Assembly (NCBI GenBank): GCA_944325505.1
Contig: CALVAJ010000015.1
Coordinates: 1 to 46,936, forward strand
From: an uncultured Bacteroidales bacterium
GTDB lineage: Bacteria; Bacteroidota; Bacteroidia; Bacteroidales; UBA932
Direction of reading: 5' to 3'
Length of the DNA stretch: 46,936 nt
Under the pieces are notes generated by a model, which saw only the letters and a program-made list of their open reading frames with translations, had not been told where the DNA came from and made no database searches. The translations under genes were made by a program, and so were the position numbers. Of this stretch, positions 5,643-23,100 are shown piece by piece. The first letter of the stretch is position 1, and each line of letters begins with the position of its first letter.

Positions 5643-6342
5643 CAGCTATCAGAGCTAATCCCATCAATACTAAGTTACAAACTACAAAGATGGAGTTTTT
5701 CATCCTTTTTGCAAAATAAATTGCGTCTCCACCTGTAAAAACTACTATATTTTCCTTAAATCTGTCAATATATCCCTGTATTTCAAACAATAATCCTGAT
5801 ATTACGCCTGATTCCACCGATGTCTGCAAAGATGTTCCGATACAGGGAAAGGATTCCGGGGTATCGAAAAGAGGCAATAATCCGGAATACCTGTTTACAG
5901 CCTTGAACCTGGTCCTGCATCCGGGGGAAACGTTTCCCCCGGAGTATCTTCCGTCAGGTTCAAGAAAATCAACTGTCATTATGGTACCGAAATCGAACAG
6001 AGTACATCCTTTTCCTTTGAAAAGATACCTTGAAGCCACTATTGACGCGACCCTGTCCGGGGAAATATAGGGAAATATGCCGCGCGATACAGCCTCTTCC
6101 GTATGGTTCCTGTCCATAAGTACAAGTCTGGAACACCTTTCAGCGAACAGCCGGACATATCCTGACGGTATATCTCTTACCGTTGAAATGACCATTATTT
6201 CAGGCCTGTCCTTTTCCGTAAGGCTTTCTATGAACTCGGATATCTTCTCTCCCTGATACCGGAATGTCTTTCCTATGGTAGTCCCGTCGGACCATGCGGC
6301 CTTAAGTGCCGTACTTCCTATATCTATGACAAGATTTGACAT
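5617..6342 (-). CDS. coaX: Type III pantothenate kinase
   Basis: A 241-residue cytosolic ASKHA-fold enzyme for the first step of coenzyme A synthesis, phosphorylating pantothenate with ATP. The N-terminal phosphate loop reads V-I-D-I-G-S-T-A-L-K, and the second signature D-F-G-T-I-M-T-V-D lies near residue 117, followed by G-G-N-V-S-P-G near 134. The length fits the family. It starts 12 bp after the mfd stop and its 3' end overlaps the outer-membrane protein gene, so it sits mid-operon. Such mixing of a metabolic gene with envelope genes is common in Bacteroidales. Confidence 0.92.
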   Translation of the reverse strand: MSNLVIDIGSTALKAAWSDGTTIGKTFRYQGEKISEFIESLTEKDRPEIMVISTVRDIPSGYVRLFAERCSRLVLMDRNHTEEAVSRGIFPYISPDRVASIVASRYLFKGKGCTLFDFGTIMTVDFLEPDGRYSGGNVSPGCRTRFKAVNRYSGLLPLFDTPESFPCIGTSLQTSVESGVISGLLFEIQGYIDRFKENIVVFTGGDAIYFAKRMKNSIFVVCNLVLMGLALIADEYVKSAH

Positions 6343-14202: not shown

Positions 14203-14982
14203 ATGGATTTAACTTTGAAAGTATGGCGTCAGAAAAACGCCAAGACAAAAGGACGTTTTGAGACCTACAAGGTCAAGAATATATCTCCTGACAGTTCCTT
14301 TCTTGAGATGCTCGACATCCTTAACGAGCAGCTCATCCATGAAGGGATGGATCCGGTAGCTGTTGAGAGAGGTTGCCAGAGTAGCGGCCCTGTCTCTTTC
14401 GACCACGACTGCCGTGAAGGTATCTGCGGTGCCTGCTCACTGTATATTAACGGTAGGGCACACGGACCTGATGATGAAGTTACTACATGCCAGCTCCACA
14501 TGCGTAAATTCAAAGACGGTGATACTATTACCATCGAGCCGTGGAGAAGCAATGTCTTCCCTGTGATAAAGGACCTTGTCGTTGACCGCAAGGCTTTTGA
14601 TAAAATCCAGCAGGCAGGCGGTTTCATTTCCGTGAATACAGGCGGAGTTCCTGACGGAAACGTAATCCCTATCTCGCATGAGACTGCTGAGGAGAGCATG
14701 GACGGTGCAGCCTGCATCGGGTGCGGTGCATGCGTGGCCACCTGCAAGAACGGTTCTGCAATGCTTTTCGTTGCTGCAAGGGTAAGTTCACTCGCACTTC
14801 TTCCACAGGGTAGGGTAGAGGCAGCCAAGAGAGCCAAGGCGATGATCGCCAAGATGGACGAACTCGGATTCGGTGCCTGCACCAATACCCGCGCCTGTGA
14901 AATGGAATGCCCTAAGCATGTGACTATCTCGCATATAGCACGTCTTAACAGGGAGTTCCTGAAGGCCAAGTTCAAAGACTAG
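14203..14982 (+). CDS. frdB: Fumarate reductase / succinate dehydrogenase iron-sulfur subunit
   Basis: A 259-residue electron-transfer subunit linking the flavoprotein to the membrane quinone site. The [2Fe-2S] motif C-R-E-G-I-C-G-A-C lies near residue 70. The [4Fe-4S] motif [11 protein letters not shown] lies near 171. The third cluster motif [12 protein letters not shown] is near 226. All cluster cysteines look intact. It is translated right after frdA and ends before a strong terminator. The expected membrane anchor (FrdC-like cytochrome b) must be encoded elsewhere. Confidence 0.95.
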
Positions 14983-14999
14983 TTTACGCTTTTAATATC

Positions 15000-15035
15000 G
15001 AGAAGCCGGTTCGTAAAACCGGCTTCTCTTTTTTT
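15000..15035 (+). terminator. Rho-independent terminator of frdAB
   Basis: A perfect 12-bp stem (GAGAAGCCGGTT with its complement at 15017-15028) closes a 5-nt loop and is followed by seven T residues. It sits 17 bp after the frdB stop. It points in the direction of frdAB and faces the convergent hflX end. Confidence 0.92.
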
Positions 15036-15100: not shown

Positions 15101-16288
15101 CTACCACAGGAAGTTATCGAACGGATAGCGTCCTGCATGGATTTCTGCTACCATCTTGTACAAGTCTGAGCGCAGTTTGTCTATTCCGATCCTGTTCTTT
15201 GCGGAGATGAAGATGCAAGGCGTGTTCTCCTTTGCTATCCAGCTGTTCTTGAACTCGTCGAGAGTATAATTTACGGGCTTTTTAGGCTCTAAAGAGAACT
15301 CGTCATACTCCTCATATCTATAAGCATCTATTTTGTTGAATACGACGAAAATAGGCTTGTTTATGGCGTTTATGTCGCGAAGTGTCTCTTCAACTACTCT
15401 GATGTGTTCTTCAAAGTTGGGGTGCGATATGTCCACCACGTGCATGAGTATGTCTGCTTCACGTACTTCATCAAGGGTGCTTTTGAATGCTTCTACAAGC
15501 TGCGTAGGGAGTTTCCTTATGAACCCTACAGTATCGCTCAGCAGGAAAGGCACGTTCTCGATTACTACCTTCCTTACAGTGGTATCAAGGGTAGCAAAGA
15601 GCTTGTTTTCTGCGAAAACATCGCTTTTCGCAAGCAGGTTCATCAATGTGCTTTTTCCTACATTGGTATAGCCTACAAGCGATATCCTGACCAGTGAGCC
15701 TCTGTTTCCTCTCTGTGAGGCCATCTGCTTGTCTATTTTTTTCAGCTGTTCCTTCAGCCTGGCTATCTTGTCCTGTATGATACGGCGGTCGGTTTCTATC
15801 TGGGTCTCACCCGGACCTCTCATTCCGATACCTCCCTTCTGCCTTTCAAGGTGTGTCCACATTCTGGTCAGTCGCGGCAGAAGGTACTGGTACTGTGCCA
15901 GTTCTACTTGTGTTTTTGCATAGGCTGTCTTGGCTCTCTGGGCAAATATGTCAAGAATCAGGTTCGTCCTGTCGAGAATCCTGCAGGAAAGTTCCCTTTC
16001 AAGATTTCTTAGCTGGGTAGGGGAGAGTTCATCGTCAAATATGACGACATCAGTTTCATTTTCAGCTATATATGACTTTATTTCTTCAAGTTTTCCGCTT
16101 CTGATATATGTTCTTGAATCCGGCCTGTCTACTTTTTGTATGAACCTTTTTTTCCCTTCCGCGCCTGCGGTTTCGGCAAGGAATTCGAGTTCATCCAGAT
16201 ATTCGAGGACCTGTCTTTCATCGTCTCCCTGTTTTATAACTCCTACAAAGACGGCCTTTTCAATATATCTTTCTTTGATTTCTATCAT
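15101..16288 (-). CDS. hflX: Ribosome-associated GTPase HflX
   Basis: A 395-residue GTPase that binds the 50S subunit and splits stalled or hibernating ribosomes, typically under stress. It has an HflX N-terminal domain, a coiled helical linker containing the signature G-G-I-G-M-R-G-P-G-E-T-Q-I-E, and a G domain with G1 G-Y-T-N-V-G-K-S-T near residue 203, G3 D-T-V-G-F and G4 N-K-I-D. I chose ATG 16288 (M-I-E-I-K-E-R-Y) because an upstream in-frame ATG at 16351 lies in the terminator hairpin of tonB. Confidence 0.93.
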   Translation of the reverse strand: MIEIKERYIEKAVFVGVIKQGDDERQVLEYLDELEFLAETAGAEGKKRFIQKVDRPDSRTYIRSGKLEEIKSYIAENETDVVIFDDELSPTQLRNLERELSCRILDRTNLILDIFAQRAKTAYAKTQVELAQYQYLLPRLTRMWTHLERQKGGIGMRGPGETQIETDRRIIQDKIARLKEQLKKIDKQMASQRGNRGSLVRISLVGYTNVGKSTLMNLLAKSDVFAENKLFATLDTTVRKVVIENVPFLLSDTVGFIRKLPTQLVEAFKSTLDEVREADILMHVVDISHPNFEEHIRVVEETLRDINAINKPIFVVFNKIDAYRYEEYDEFSLEPKKPVNYTLDEFKNSWIAKENTPCIFISAKNRIGIDKLRSDLYKMVAEIHAGRYPFDNFLW

Positions 16289-16335
16289 ATTCTGTATATG
16301 AAGATTTTCTATACTATAAGCACATTTAACCAATA

Positions 16336-16368
16336 AAAAAGGTCCAGCCATATAGGTCGGACCTTTTT
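16336..16368 (-). terminator. Symmetrical terminator between tonB and hflX
   Basis: AAAAAGGTCC pairs with GGACCTTTTT in a 10-bp stem around a 13-nt loop. Read leftward it ends tonB 20 bp after its stop. Because the stem is A/T-flanked on both sides it could act in either direction. Confidence 0.75.
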
Positions 16369-17186: not shown

Positions 17187-17606
17187 ATGATACTCTATTA
17201 TTATGAGGATTTAGATTTTATCTTTAAAGGCAAGACACTTAATAACAGGTGGCTGCGGCTTGTTGCCGAGAGCGAGATAAAGCGTGCGGGTGACATATCT
17301 ATAATCTTCTGTTCGGACAATTATATTCTGGATATAAACCAGAGATATCTCCAGCACGATTATTTTACCGATATCATTACTTTCGACTATTGTGAAGGTG
17401 ACAGATTGTCCGGAGATCTCTTTATAAGTATCGACAGTGTCAGGGAAAATGCCCGTGAGTATGGAACTGAGTTCAAGGATGAGCTGAACAGGGTCATTGT
17501 CCACGGCCTTCTTCATCTTATAGGATATGATGACCATACCGCAGAGGAAAAGGAAGTGATGAGAAAGAAGGAGGATTATTATCTTTCATTAAGGGAGTTG
17601 CTCTGA
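17187..17606 (+). CDS. ybeY: Endoribonuclease YbeY (16S rRNA maturation)
   Basis: A 139-residue single-strand-specific metal-dependent RNase involved in 16S rRNA 3'-end maturation and ribosome quality control. The zinc-binding signature [12 protein letters not shown] lies near residues 105-117, with all three histidines present. The length is typical. Its TGA overlaps the mnmG ATG by one base, so the two are translationally coupled. Confidence 0.95.
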
Positions 17607-19732
17607 TGGAAAAATTCTATGACGTAATAGTTATCGGCGGCGGACATGCCGGCTGCGAGGCTGCTATGGCTGCAGCTAACATGGGATCTTCCGTGCTGCT
17701 GATTACTATGGATATGAACAAATTTGCGCAGATGTCCTGTAATCCTGCAGTGGGTGGTATTGCTAAAGGCCAGATTATCAGGGAAGTGGATGCTTTAGGA
17801 GGATACACTGGAATAGTAACGGACGCTTCGACGCTCCAGTTCAGGATGCTGAACAGGTCAAAAGGCCCTGCAATGTGGAGTCCCCGTGCCCAATGCGATA
17901 AACTGCAGTTTTGTATTAACTGGAGAAAAATCCTTGAAACTAATTGTAAATTAGATATTTACCAAGATACAGTAACTGATTTTGCCTTTTCTGGTTCGCG
18001 TATTGCGGGCTGCAGTACGACTACCGGAGCAAAATTCAATTTTCACGCAGTTATCCTTACCGCCGGAACCTTCCTTGACGGCAGGCTTTTCATCGGGAGG
18101 AACCGGTTCGAAGGGGGAAGGATAGGGGAGCTTTCTTCATACGGGCTTACGGGCCAGCTGAAGGAGATGGGTATAAGGACTGCAAGGATGAAAACAGGCA
18201 CTCCTCCGAGAATTGATATTTCATCTGTAGATGTTACAAGGCTTGTCAGACAGGAAGGGGACAGTGAGCCCGAAAAATTCTCCTATCTTCCCTTTCTTTC
18301 TACAGTGCAGAACGGCACTCCGCAGATGCCGTGTTTTATTGTACATACTAATTCCAAAGTACATGATATACTAAGGAGCGGTTTTGCTGACTCTCCTTTG
18401 TTTTCAGGTGCAATCAAGGGTATCGGCCCAAGATATTGTCCGAGTATCGAAGATAAATTGAGGACATTTGCCGACAAGGATTCACATCAGCTTTTCCTGG
18501 AGCCTGAGGGAAGGACGACAGGGGAATATTACCTTCAGGGTTTTTCTTCATCTCTTCCTTTGGAAGTACAGATAGAGGCTTTGCATTCAATCGAGGGACT
18601 TGAGAATGTCAGGATTTTCCGCCCTGCGTACGCTGTAGAGTATGATTATTTCGATCCTGTCCAGCTTAAGCCTACTCTTGAACTCAAGACAATAGAAAAC
18701 CTGTATTTGGCAGGTCAGGTCAATGGTACTACCGGTTATGAAGAAGCTGCGGCGCAAGGTATCATGGCAGGTATTAATGCTCATTTGAAAGTTCACGGGA
18801 AAGATCCGTTCATACTGAAGCGTGACCAGGCGTATATAGGTGTTCTGATTGATGACCTTATTACAAAAGGTGTAGACGAGCCGTACAGGATGTTTACTTC
18901 AAGGGCGGAATACAGGATACTGTTACGTCAGGACAACGCTGACAGAAGACTTACCGGCCTGTCATATAATATAGGACTTGCTGACAGATTCAGGTATGAC
19001 TATACCATGTCCAAGTATGATGCTGTAGACAGGTATACTGAATACTTCGAAGAAAATTTAATAAAACCGGATAAGGTCAATCCTTACCTTGATGATATAG
19101 GTTCTGCAAAAATCGATTCCAGAAAAAGGTATTCTGACCTGATAGTCAGGCCGGGAGTAAAGCTTGATAGATTGATGGATTTTGTTCCACGTGGAACAAA
19201 ATTATCCAATGGAAGGGATTTTCATGATGAAATGCTGAACGGAATTCCGACTCCGGAAGATTGTTACAGTGATTTTGATTATGAAAAAGCTTTGACGGAT
19301 CTTGGAAGAGGGGAGGGTGTGAAAGAAGATGATAAGTCTCTTTATAAAGATAATTGCCGTTCCTATACGAATGCTTTGGAAGTATTAAGATGGAACTGCG
19401 GTTATCCTCTTGTGGCGAGCGGCCGCGATAAAGAAGGTAACCTTATCGTGAAAATAGGATATAATATTAAAAAGGAAATCGTAGAGTCTGTAGAGATTGC
19501 CATAAAGTATAAAGGATATATAGACAGGGAGCAGAAGATAGCTGATAAGATTATGAGACTCGAAAATCTGGTTATTCCTGAAGGCTTTGATTTCGATAAG
19601 GTGGAGAGTCTGTCTATAGAATGCAGACAAAAGCTTAAGAAGTATGCTCCGAAGACGATAGCCCAGGCTTCGAGGATATCAGGTGTATCGCCTGCTGATA
19701 TTTCCGTTCTTTTGGTTTATTTCGGTAGATAG
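17606..19732 (+). CDS. mnmG: tRNA uridine-5-carboxymethylaminomethyl modification enzyme MnmG with extra C-terminal segment
   Basis: A 708-residue FAD enzyme that works with MnmE to modify the wobble uridine of several tRNAs. The FAD motif [11 protein letters not shown] begins at residue 10. The family signatures around [19 protein letters not shown] and [11 protein letters not shown] are intact, and the C-terminal helical domain ends [13 protein letters not shown]. The usual length is about 620-630. The excess sits at about residues 525-605, between R-P-G-V-K-L and [10 protein letters not shown]. This segment contains V-P-R-G, encoded by a parS palindrome. It looks uninterrupted and functional. 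Confidence 0.94.
19179..19202. promoter_or_regulatory. parS-type centromere site inside mnmG
   Basis: The core TGTTCCACGTGGAACA at 19183-19198 is a perfect 16-bp palindrome matching the widely conserved chromosomal parS consensus (TGTTNCACGTGNAACA). It is the expected binding and CTP-loading site for ParB. Flanking bases extend the perfect symmetry to 24 bp. It is read in frame as F-V-P-R-G-T-K in MnmG. parA and parB are not in the window. Confidence 0.85.
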
Positions 19733-19809
19733 TACAGCTGAGTTTTAAACGGTTCCGTCAGATTTAAAATCTACAGGAAATCGTTTTATGTTCTTCAGAA
19801 AAGATAATG

Positions 19810-19851
19810 TAATAAATAAAGGTGTTCCACGTGGAACACCTTTATTTATTA
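19810..19851. promoter_or_regulatory. parS-type site within a 42-bp perfect palindrome, probably also a bidirectional terminator
   Basis: The same 16-bp core (TGTTCCACGTGGAACA, 19823-19838) is embedded in a perfect palindrome of 42 bp. The outer arms are AATAAATAAAGG and its complement. It lies between the convergent mnmG and ruvA genes. As RNA it would form a GC-containing hairpin followed by a U-rich tail in both directions, so one element could serve as centromere and shared transcription terminator. The dual use is inference; the palindrome is directly visible. Confidence 0.85.
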
Positions 19852-19869
19852 TTTATATTAAAAAATACT

Positions 19870-20457
19870 TTACAGCCTTTTCAAGGCAAGCTTGATAATC
19901 ATTTCAAGGGATGTGTCCGGCTGCTCTTTCAGTACGGCAGATACGGCCTTGTTTACATTTGCCTTGGTAAATCCGAGAAGTACAAGGGCTGTAGTCGCCT
20001 CTTGTACTATGCTGCTGTCGGTATGGCTGAAAATGGCCGGAGTGTCTGCTCCGGCGCCTTTTACTACTTTGTCCTTGAGTTCCAGAATAAGTCTTTGGGC
20101 GCTTTTCAGTCCTATTCCTTTAATGCTTTTTATCCTGTTGATGTCTTCGGATATTATTGCATTTCTTATTTCATCGGATGTAAGGGATGACAGCATCATC
20201 CGGGCTGTCGCTGCGCCTATTCCTGATACTCCTATGAGAAGTCTGAAAAGTTCGCGCTCGTCTTTTGTCCCGAATCCGTAGAAAAGTTCTTCATCTTCCC
20301 GGAGATAATGATGTATATATACGGTAACTTCCCTTTTGTTCTCCAGCTGCGAGAATGTCTGTAACGAAATAAGGAGTTTATATCCTATTCCATGGCACTC
20401 GACTACTGCATCTGTCGGGGTAAGGTCTTCAAGGGTTCCTTTTATATATTCTATCAT
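19870..20457 (-). CDS. ruvA: Holliday-junction DNA-binding subunit RuvA
   Basis: A 195-residue protein that forms the tetramer holding the four-way junction and loading RuvB. It has an N-terminal OB-fold (M-I-E-Y-I-K-G-T-L), two helix-hairpin-helix motifs (L-I-G-V-S-G-I-G-A-A-T-A and I-K-G-I-G-L-K-S-A-Q-R near residues 70 and 110), a flexible linker, and a C-terminal RuvB-contacting three-helix domain from about 148. The length is normal. It stands alone, facing mnmG, with a TATTTTTG -7-like element at 20491-20498. Confidence 0.95.
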   Translation of the reverse strand: MIEYIKGTLEDLTPTDAVVECHGIGYKLLISLQTFSQLENKREVTVYIHHYLREDEELFYGFGTKDERELFRLLIGVSGIGAATARMMLSSLTSDEIRNAIISEDINRIKSIKGIGLKSAQRLILELKDKVVKGAGADTPAIFSHTDSSIVQEATTALVLLGFTKANVNKAVSAVLKEQPDTSLEMIIKLALKRL

Positions 20458-22614: not shown

Positions 22615-23100
22615 ATGGAAGTGTATTTTTCACTCGGATCGAATCTCGGAGACCGCGAGTCCAATATCCATAAGGCGCTGGAGCTTATGGACGGGGCTTT
22701 CGGAGTGCACTATGATGCACTTTCCTCCCTGCTTGAAACTGAACCGTGGGGATTTGATTCGGATGACCTTTTTTTGAACTGTGCCGTAAGGTATATTCTG
22801 GACCTGCCTTGTCAGGAGATCCTGTCGAAGTGCAAGATGGTTGAAATCATGATGGGGAGAAGTGTGCATTGTCCTGAATTCAGCCCCGGCGGGAAGAGAA
22901 TATACCGGTCGAGAATTATGGATATTGATATTTTGTTCTACGGGGAACACAGGATAGATACTGGCAGTCTGAAAGTTCCGCATCCTCTGATGAGCCAGAG
23001 GGATTTCGTGATGGTCCCTTTGGAGGAAATAGTTTCGGACAGAATCAGGAAGGCATTTCCCGATATTTTTACAAAATATTCCTATTTTTGCAGGCTGTAA
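22615..23100 (+). CDS. folK: 6-hydroxymethyl-7,8-dihydropterin pyrophosphokinase
   Basis: A 161-residue folate-synthesis enzyme that transfers pyrophosphate from ATP to the pterin. The N-terminal signature Y-F-S-L-G-S-N-L-G-D-R-E is followed by E-T-E-P-W-G, R-I-M-D-I-D-I-L-F-Y and V-P-H-P-L-M, all diagnostic for HPPK. It stands alone, without FolB or FolP fusions, 41 bp after sufT and 37 bp before glyS. The -7-like element for glyS lies inside its final codons. Confidence 0.93.
   Translation: MEVYFSLGSNLGDRESNIHKALELMDGAFGVHYDALSSLLETEPWGFDSDDLFLNCAVRYILDLPCQEILSKCKMVEIMMGRSVHCPEFSPGGKRIYRSRIMDIDILFYGEHRIDTGSLKVPHPLMSQRDFVMVPLEEIVSDRIRKAFPDIFTKYSYFCRL
23083..23090 (+). promoter_or_regulatory. 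-7 element of the glyS promoter, inside folK
   Basis: TATTTTTG matches TAnnTTTG, 47 bp ahead of the glyS ATG and within the last codons of folK. A -33 TTG is not evident. Confidence 0.4.

Follow-up and report, generated by a model that had tools for sequence, protein, structure and literature searches.

We report that a perfect 42-bp palindrome in the gap between the convergent genes mnmG and ruvA of an uncultured Bacteroidales bacterium probably unites a parS site with a bidirectional intrinsic terminator that would serve both genes, an arrangement that recurs among members of the genus. The interpretation is supported by sequence evolution, from which we infer function: the letters of the parS core are nearly fixed among relatives, the flanks retain their pairing, and the arms have the polarity and the T-rich tails of a terminator. 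The palindrome was studied in the window, i.e. the whole stretch of DNA that was analysed (contig CALVAJ010000015.1, 46,936 nucleotides). Judging from its named neighbours, the window appears to belong to the Candidatus Cryptobacteroides group: MAGs of that group supply the closest named loci, with Ca. C. avicola (95% RuvA identity) first among them.

The 42-bp element, the mnmG-ruvA gap and parS in the genome

The palindrome at 19810-19851, which the first-pass annotation had described as perfect, proved to be so: its arms (19810-19830 and 19831-19851, 21 nucleotides each) are 100% complementary with no spacer between them. No longer spacer-less inverted repeat was listed for the window, and the perfect ones that follow it in length have 24 bp. 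The features of the locus are (coordinates, strand, description):

17606..19732, + strand: mnmG (gidA), convergent with ruvA (TIGR00136, 794 bits, cut-off 525)
19183..19198, unstranded: second exact parS copy, inside mnmG, where it encodes VPRGT; the sole other exact copy in the genome (parS match, genome search)
19798..19822, - strand: arm and T-rich tail of the candidate terminator for ruvA, reading CCTTTATTTATTACATTATCTTTTC (terminator call, folding)
19810..19851, unstranded: palindrome in which the parS core is flanked by arms of 13 bp, A-rich on the left and T-rich on the right; the proposed parS-terminator fusion (inverted-repeat, terminator and folding analyses)
19823..19838, unstranded: parS core TGTTCCACGTGGAACA, the gap copy, which would also be the G+C-richer head of an RNA hairpin on either strand (parS match, genus comparison)
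19839..19862, + strand: right arm and T-rich tail (CCTTTATTTATTATTTATATTAAA) of the candidate terminator for mnmG (terminator call, folding)
19870..20457, - strand: ruvA (TIGR00084, 202 bits, cut-off 85)

Both mnmG and ruvA are confirmed members of their families, and they converge on a gap of 137 bp. The element had been placed exactly between the two genes; it does lie in the convergent gap but is off-centre, starting 77 bp past the mnmG stop and ending 18 bp before the ruvA stop. A terminator-like site was called at the element on both strands (10 such sites in 5 kb vs 3.9 expected), and folding gave -27.1 kcal/mol on the + strand (z -8.7) and -25.1 kcal/mol on the - strand (z -9.6); none of 200 shuffles folded as well. 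With respect to the hairpin with U-rich tails that had been proposed for both strands, six T in eight do follow the G+C-richer stem on each strand, but the run is interrupted by A and the T-rich stretch is mostly the palindrome's own arm (CCTTTATTTATTA). The element has a predicted stable hairpin and a U-rich tract on both strands and is positioned after two converging genes, the features by which a bidirectional terminator is recognised.

The window holds an ordinary two-way terminator at 15000-15028, with a 12-bp stem and a T-rich tail, between the convergent genes at 14203-14982 and 15101-16351; of the window's other convergent gaps this one, with 118 bp, is the most similar in length. There are six such other junctions according to rough gene calls, and five of them have no such hairpin. 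A perfect 24-bp palindrome, TCCGGGGGAAACGTTTCCCCCGGA, is present at 5920-5943, and scanning the window for Rfam families and tRNAs gave no hits.

The chromosomal parS consensus of Livny et al. 2007 is reportedly TGTTTCACGTGAAACA, and the 16-bp core differs from this form at two symmetric positions. Two matches with at most three mismatches to the consensus were found vs 0.20 expected, and 3 of 100 shuffles also gave two. The exact 16-mer is present in two copies, 640 bp apart, and nowhere else in the genome (2.36 Mb, 54 contigs, 92% complete). A parA-parB pair is located on another contig (G000:C10; L027). Its ParB scores 180 bits against TIGR00180 (cut-off 58), with Spo0J as the best solved relative and Spo0J/ParB proteins as the nearest ones, and the ParA neighbour of parB matches ParA/MinD-type models, none of those listed reaching its curated cut-off. 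Three marks of a chromosomal parS are found here: a match to the 16-bp palindrome, few and clustered copies, and a ParB/Spo0J-family gene beside ParA. The parS core that had been read inside the palindrome, TGTTCCACGTGGAACA at 19823-19838, is supported at the level of sequence evolution, with letters that are nearly invariant in relatives. The Livny et al. 2007 consensus is cited in the available part of PMC10197239.

An imperfect parS-like site with two mismatches at 22934-22949, 3.1 kb from the gap copy, is at the chance level given by a reversed-pattern control. The GC skew of the window is below zero in every 2-kb bin of the first 10 kb and above zero between 10 and 26 kb, which may hint at a nearby replication origin in a genome that is divided into 54 contigs.

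Flank pairing in the genus and occurrence outside it

RuvA matches were obtained in 126 of 151 genus genomes. With five of these left out (partial matches or contig edges), 120 stretches together with L007 and the window gave 122 loci, 115 of which have convergent mnmG and ruvA; the remaining seven were left out since mnmG was missing (six) or not convergent (one). We added 75 of 80 named loci, the other five being without mnmG, and removal of exact duplicates over approximately 210 bp reduced the 190 loci to 164 distinct ones, near-duplicates being kept. A parS-like site, defined as having at most two mismatches to TGTTYCACGTGRAACA, is present in the gap in 111 of the 164 loci and inside mnmG in 160.

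The copy inside mnmG has the same reading phase in 160/160 loci and encodes VPRGT in 135/160, i.e. a centromere-like site is written into a conserved enzyme, and its distance to the mnmG stop is approximately 282 to 576 bp across most relatives. In the window MnmG has 708 amino acids, and the TIGR00136 match is split in two stretches, as if there were extra residues after the VPRGT site.

Complementarity was scored at positions 9-16 on each side of the centre, and the right flanks were permuted among species (1000 permutations). The 111 gap copies, unselected for stems, have 487 complementary pairs vs a permutation mean of 307 and a maximum of 352; the 160 mnmG copies, an internal control that is not clean due to an excess of long stems (see below), have 478 vs a mean of 458 and a maximum of 498. 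When the relatives were thinned to <85, <75 and <70% identity, z was 11.7, 6.3 and 4.4 for the gap copies and 1.5, 1.5 and 1.3 for the mnmG copies. Stems of at least 12 pairs with a matching centre number 35 in the gap vs a permutation mean of 2.8 and a maximum of 9. Pairing outside the core is strongly preserved in the convergent gap and, by pair count, not inside mnmG. Were this a general property of parS, an extended palindrome would be expected equally at both places, whereas the pair count differs between them.

We refer to gap copies with at least 12 continuous pairs, the four-base loop being ignored, as extended. This class comprises 39 of the 111 gap copies (35 if the loop must match too) and includes all five loci of the window's own clade; within it pairing up to position 12 is true by definition, the unselected statement being the permutation on all 111 copies. 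The long stem is absent in 72 of the 111, so parS can do without the fusion. When mapped on a MnmG and RuvA tree made with FastTree, the extended state requires at least 18 changes, at least 12 of which are forced by starred branches, the stars being less trustworthy where long branches are present; the trait appears to have changed repeatedly within the genus.

Outside the genus, the exact core 16-mer was detected in 83 of 295 genomes of the order (own genome included), and of 35 loci with exact parS that were examined in other families, 29 of them taken from the capped list of this order search, 33 have an mnmG match alongside, within 2.2-3 kb. Searches of the phylum (395 genomes each) gave the terminator-polarity pattern in nine genomes and the opposite polarity in four, one of the latter being the window's own mnmG copy; the former pattern misses the window's own gap site, where the arm begins with GG, and is a partial probe only. 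Thirteen loci from these searches were read, and in the 12 that are not the window's, stems of at least 12 pairs are present in 2 of 22 sites, neither with both tails. The nearest case among these (L265) has an 11-pair stem and a T-rich right flank directly after mnmG. Our data suggest that the location of parS by mnmG is widespread in the order, and the terminator fusion looks genus-specific in the samples examined. Sites of parS adjoin mnmG, upstream or downstream, across many of the order's families and also elsewhere in the phylum (L001-L006, L230-L258, L259-L271), and some of these genomes have two or three close copies.

Terminator polarity, the parS core and competing readings

The longer palindrome might be a feature of the DNA, such as stronger or oriented binding of ParB or cruciform extrusion, and unrelated to transcription, a reading that we consider unlikely. 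It agrees with the perfect palindromy of the stem and with the low number of G-T pairs in extended stems, and also with the long stems in mnmG, where 12 of 160 copies have at least 12 pairs vs a permutation mean of 2.4 and a maximum of 7. After thinning the numbers are 8 (<85%, maximum 8), 4 (<75%, maximum 5) and 2 (<70%, maximum 3). These 12 copies include the window's own (12 pairs, 19179-19202) and those of two species next to it (L030, 16 pairs, and L152, 18 pairs), all three from the window's clade and lacking T-rich tails on both strands, and several of the 12 are near relatives. Several or many have T to the left of the core, the reverse of a terminator, and both T-rich tails are found in 1 of the 12. 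Such stems in mnmG could be due to coding constraint, shared ancestry or a weak preference for symmetry at the DNA level. The mnmG flanks overall, however, are without pairing excess, though the same ParB should read them.

Three further observations argue against a feature of the DNA alone. First, the extension in the gap has the polarity of a terminator: the added left arm of the extended copies contains 256 A and 57 T, with A exceeding T in 37 of 39. Both strands carry T-rich tails in 33/39 extended copies, 14/72 other gap copies and 6/160 mnmG copies, the two tails of a palindrome not being independent. Second, extension goes with the absence of a separate terminator. By a simple and crude finder, a separate hairpin with a T-rich tail is present in gaps of at least 35 bp in 3/33 extended loci, 16/42 loci with plain parS and 6/18 loci without parS (3/33 vs 22/60 for the others, p=0.004), and in shorter gaps in 0/6, 7/30 and 8/35, respectively. 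Third, outside the genus stems of at least 12 pairs occur in 5 of 46 exact sites, and such a stem together with both T-rich tails in 1 of 46. Most of the non-extended loci have no terminator that the crude finder recognises, so mnmG and ruvA may there tolerate read-through or use Rho. The bidirectional terminator of the first-pass annotation is supported at the level of sequence evolution, by the flank pairing that is kept, the polarity and the T-rich tails on both strands.

ParB at the core could alternatively act as a roadblock or switch, such that termination depends on ParB. The overlap of two sites makes interference possible, and ParB represses genes by the intergenic parS3/parS4 in Pseudomonas aeruginosa according to the available part of PMC5521831. 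In vitro, however, RNA polymerase traverses ParB-DNA complexes and clusters freely and with little effect (available part of PMC10681803, which also cites reports of lowered expression around parS), and this speaks against ParB-dependent termination as well as against a strong need for shielding. The T-rich tails and the paired flanks point to an RNA hairpin that is independent of protein, and we regard a ParB-regulated terminator as improbable.

The chances are also poor, in our view somewhat below slight, that the element is a bidirectional terminator only, the parS-like core being a leftover or coincidence with no ParB function at the gap copy. The second parS in mnmG could suffice, and a gap copy within two mismatches is missing in 53 of the 164 loci. 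A core of this kind should drift like the flanks, yet all 39 extended copies agree at half-site positions 2-7 of the core, and 35 of them retain the exact 14-mer; the position of exact parS beside mnmG in other families (33/35, see above) likewise counts against a leftover. The extended flanks use several pair types at positions 9-11 and 14-16 (position 9: GC 28, TA 6, AT 5; position 14: AT 17, GC 10, TA 7, others). Between sister pairs, changes on the left are compensated in 33/36 extended vs 7/121 non-extended cases, which is partly forced as the extended group is defined by pairing. The core appears to be held by its letters and the flanks by pairing, as expected of two overlapping functions. 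In eight extended copies (L039, L040, L061, L172, L174, L176, L181 and L205) the outermost parS pair is swapped (AGTTCCACGTGGAACT) with the palindrome kept, so ParB may be largely indifferent to position 8.

It is very improbable that the symmetry around a functional parS arose by chance because the gap is AT-rich: AT-rich flanks do favour A-T pairing, permuted flanks pairing at 25-44% per position over positions 9-16, but the permutation keeps this bias and is far exceeded (35 long stems vs at most 9), the pair count survives thinning of the relatives, and in the window alone 13 further matched pairs outside the core would have to arise by chance. For the genus as a whole, chance symmetry is refuted by the permutation and the thinned permutation.

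On the reading that we favour, a parS fused to a two-way terminator, the evolution of complementary A-rich and T-rich arms around the 16-bp chromosomal parS palindrome would have turned it into the head of an intrinsic (Rho-independent) terminator that works in both directions and serves mnmG and ruvA. In the DNA duplex, the conserved core would be where the ParB clamp, encoded on another contig, is loaded. In a transcript of either strand, the core and its A-rich and U-rich arms would fold into a hairpin of 19-20 bp, with a U-rich tract after or overlapping it, and hairpin and tract would release RNA polymerase. ParB would read the duplex and RNA polymerase the RNA. The fusion might save space where the gap is small, or might shield the ParB loading site from transcription; keeping RNA polymerase from crossing that site from both sides would then be of benefit. 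A more specific proposal, which we put forward tentatively as possible though doubtful, is a transcription-insulated centromere: selection in Cryptobacteroides would repeatedly have enclosed the parS of the gap within a two-way terminator of its own, such that neither the ParB loading site nor, perhaps, any condensin acting there is crossed by transcription from either flanking gene, with the mnmG parS as a transcribed back-up.

Relation to known systems

The fusion would combine two known elements, and the combination itself seems to be new, to the limited extent that no description of a parS doubling as a terminator was found in the available parts of the open-licence literature. If the reading is true, one short sequence is under two independent codes, one fixing the letters that a DNA-binding clamp reads and the other the pairing of an RNA hairpin. 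As the fusion appears repeatedly within a single genus, beside related species that are without it, nature would have provided a test of whether chromosome segregation is affected when a ParB loading site is transcribed through. It would also be a warning for annotators, since a parS can hide in a predicted terminator, and the reverse.

The element resembles the chromosomal parS of ParABS systems in its 16-bp palindrome, its few clustered copies and the Spo0J/ParB-family ParB in the genome. It differs in that the core is nested in a longer stem, conserved in its pairing and putatively shared with a terminator, and in that parA-parB is on another contig. Where genes converge, bidirectional intrinsic terminators consist of a hairpin with A-rich 5' and T-rich 3' flanks that is readable on both strands. 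The element shares with these the A-rich 5'/T-rich 3' hairpin in a convergent gap, a local example being that at 15000-15028, whereas its hairpin head is a fixed, putatively protein-binding sequence and not a run of G+C pairs that are free to vary. An overlap of chromosomal parS with a transcription signal has precedents in the available parts of the respective papers, namely a putative parS over the -10 box of gidB in Mycobacterium bovis BCG (PMC2346475) and parS3/parS4 of P. aeruginosa (PMC5521831); the signal concerns initiation in those cases, and here it would be a terminator.
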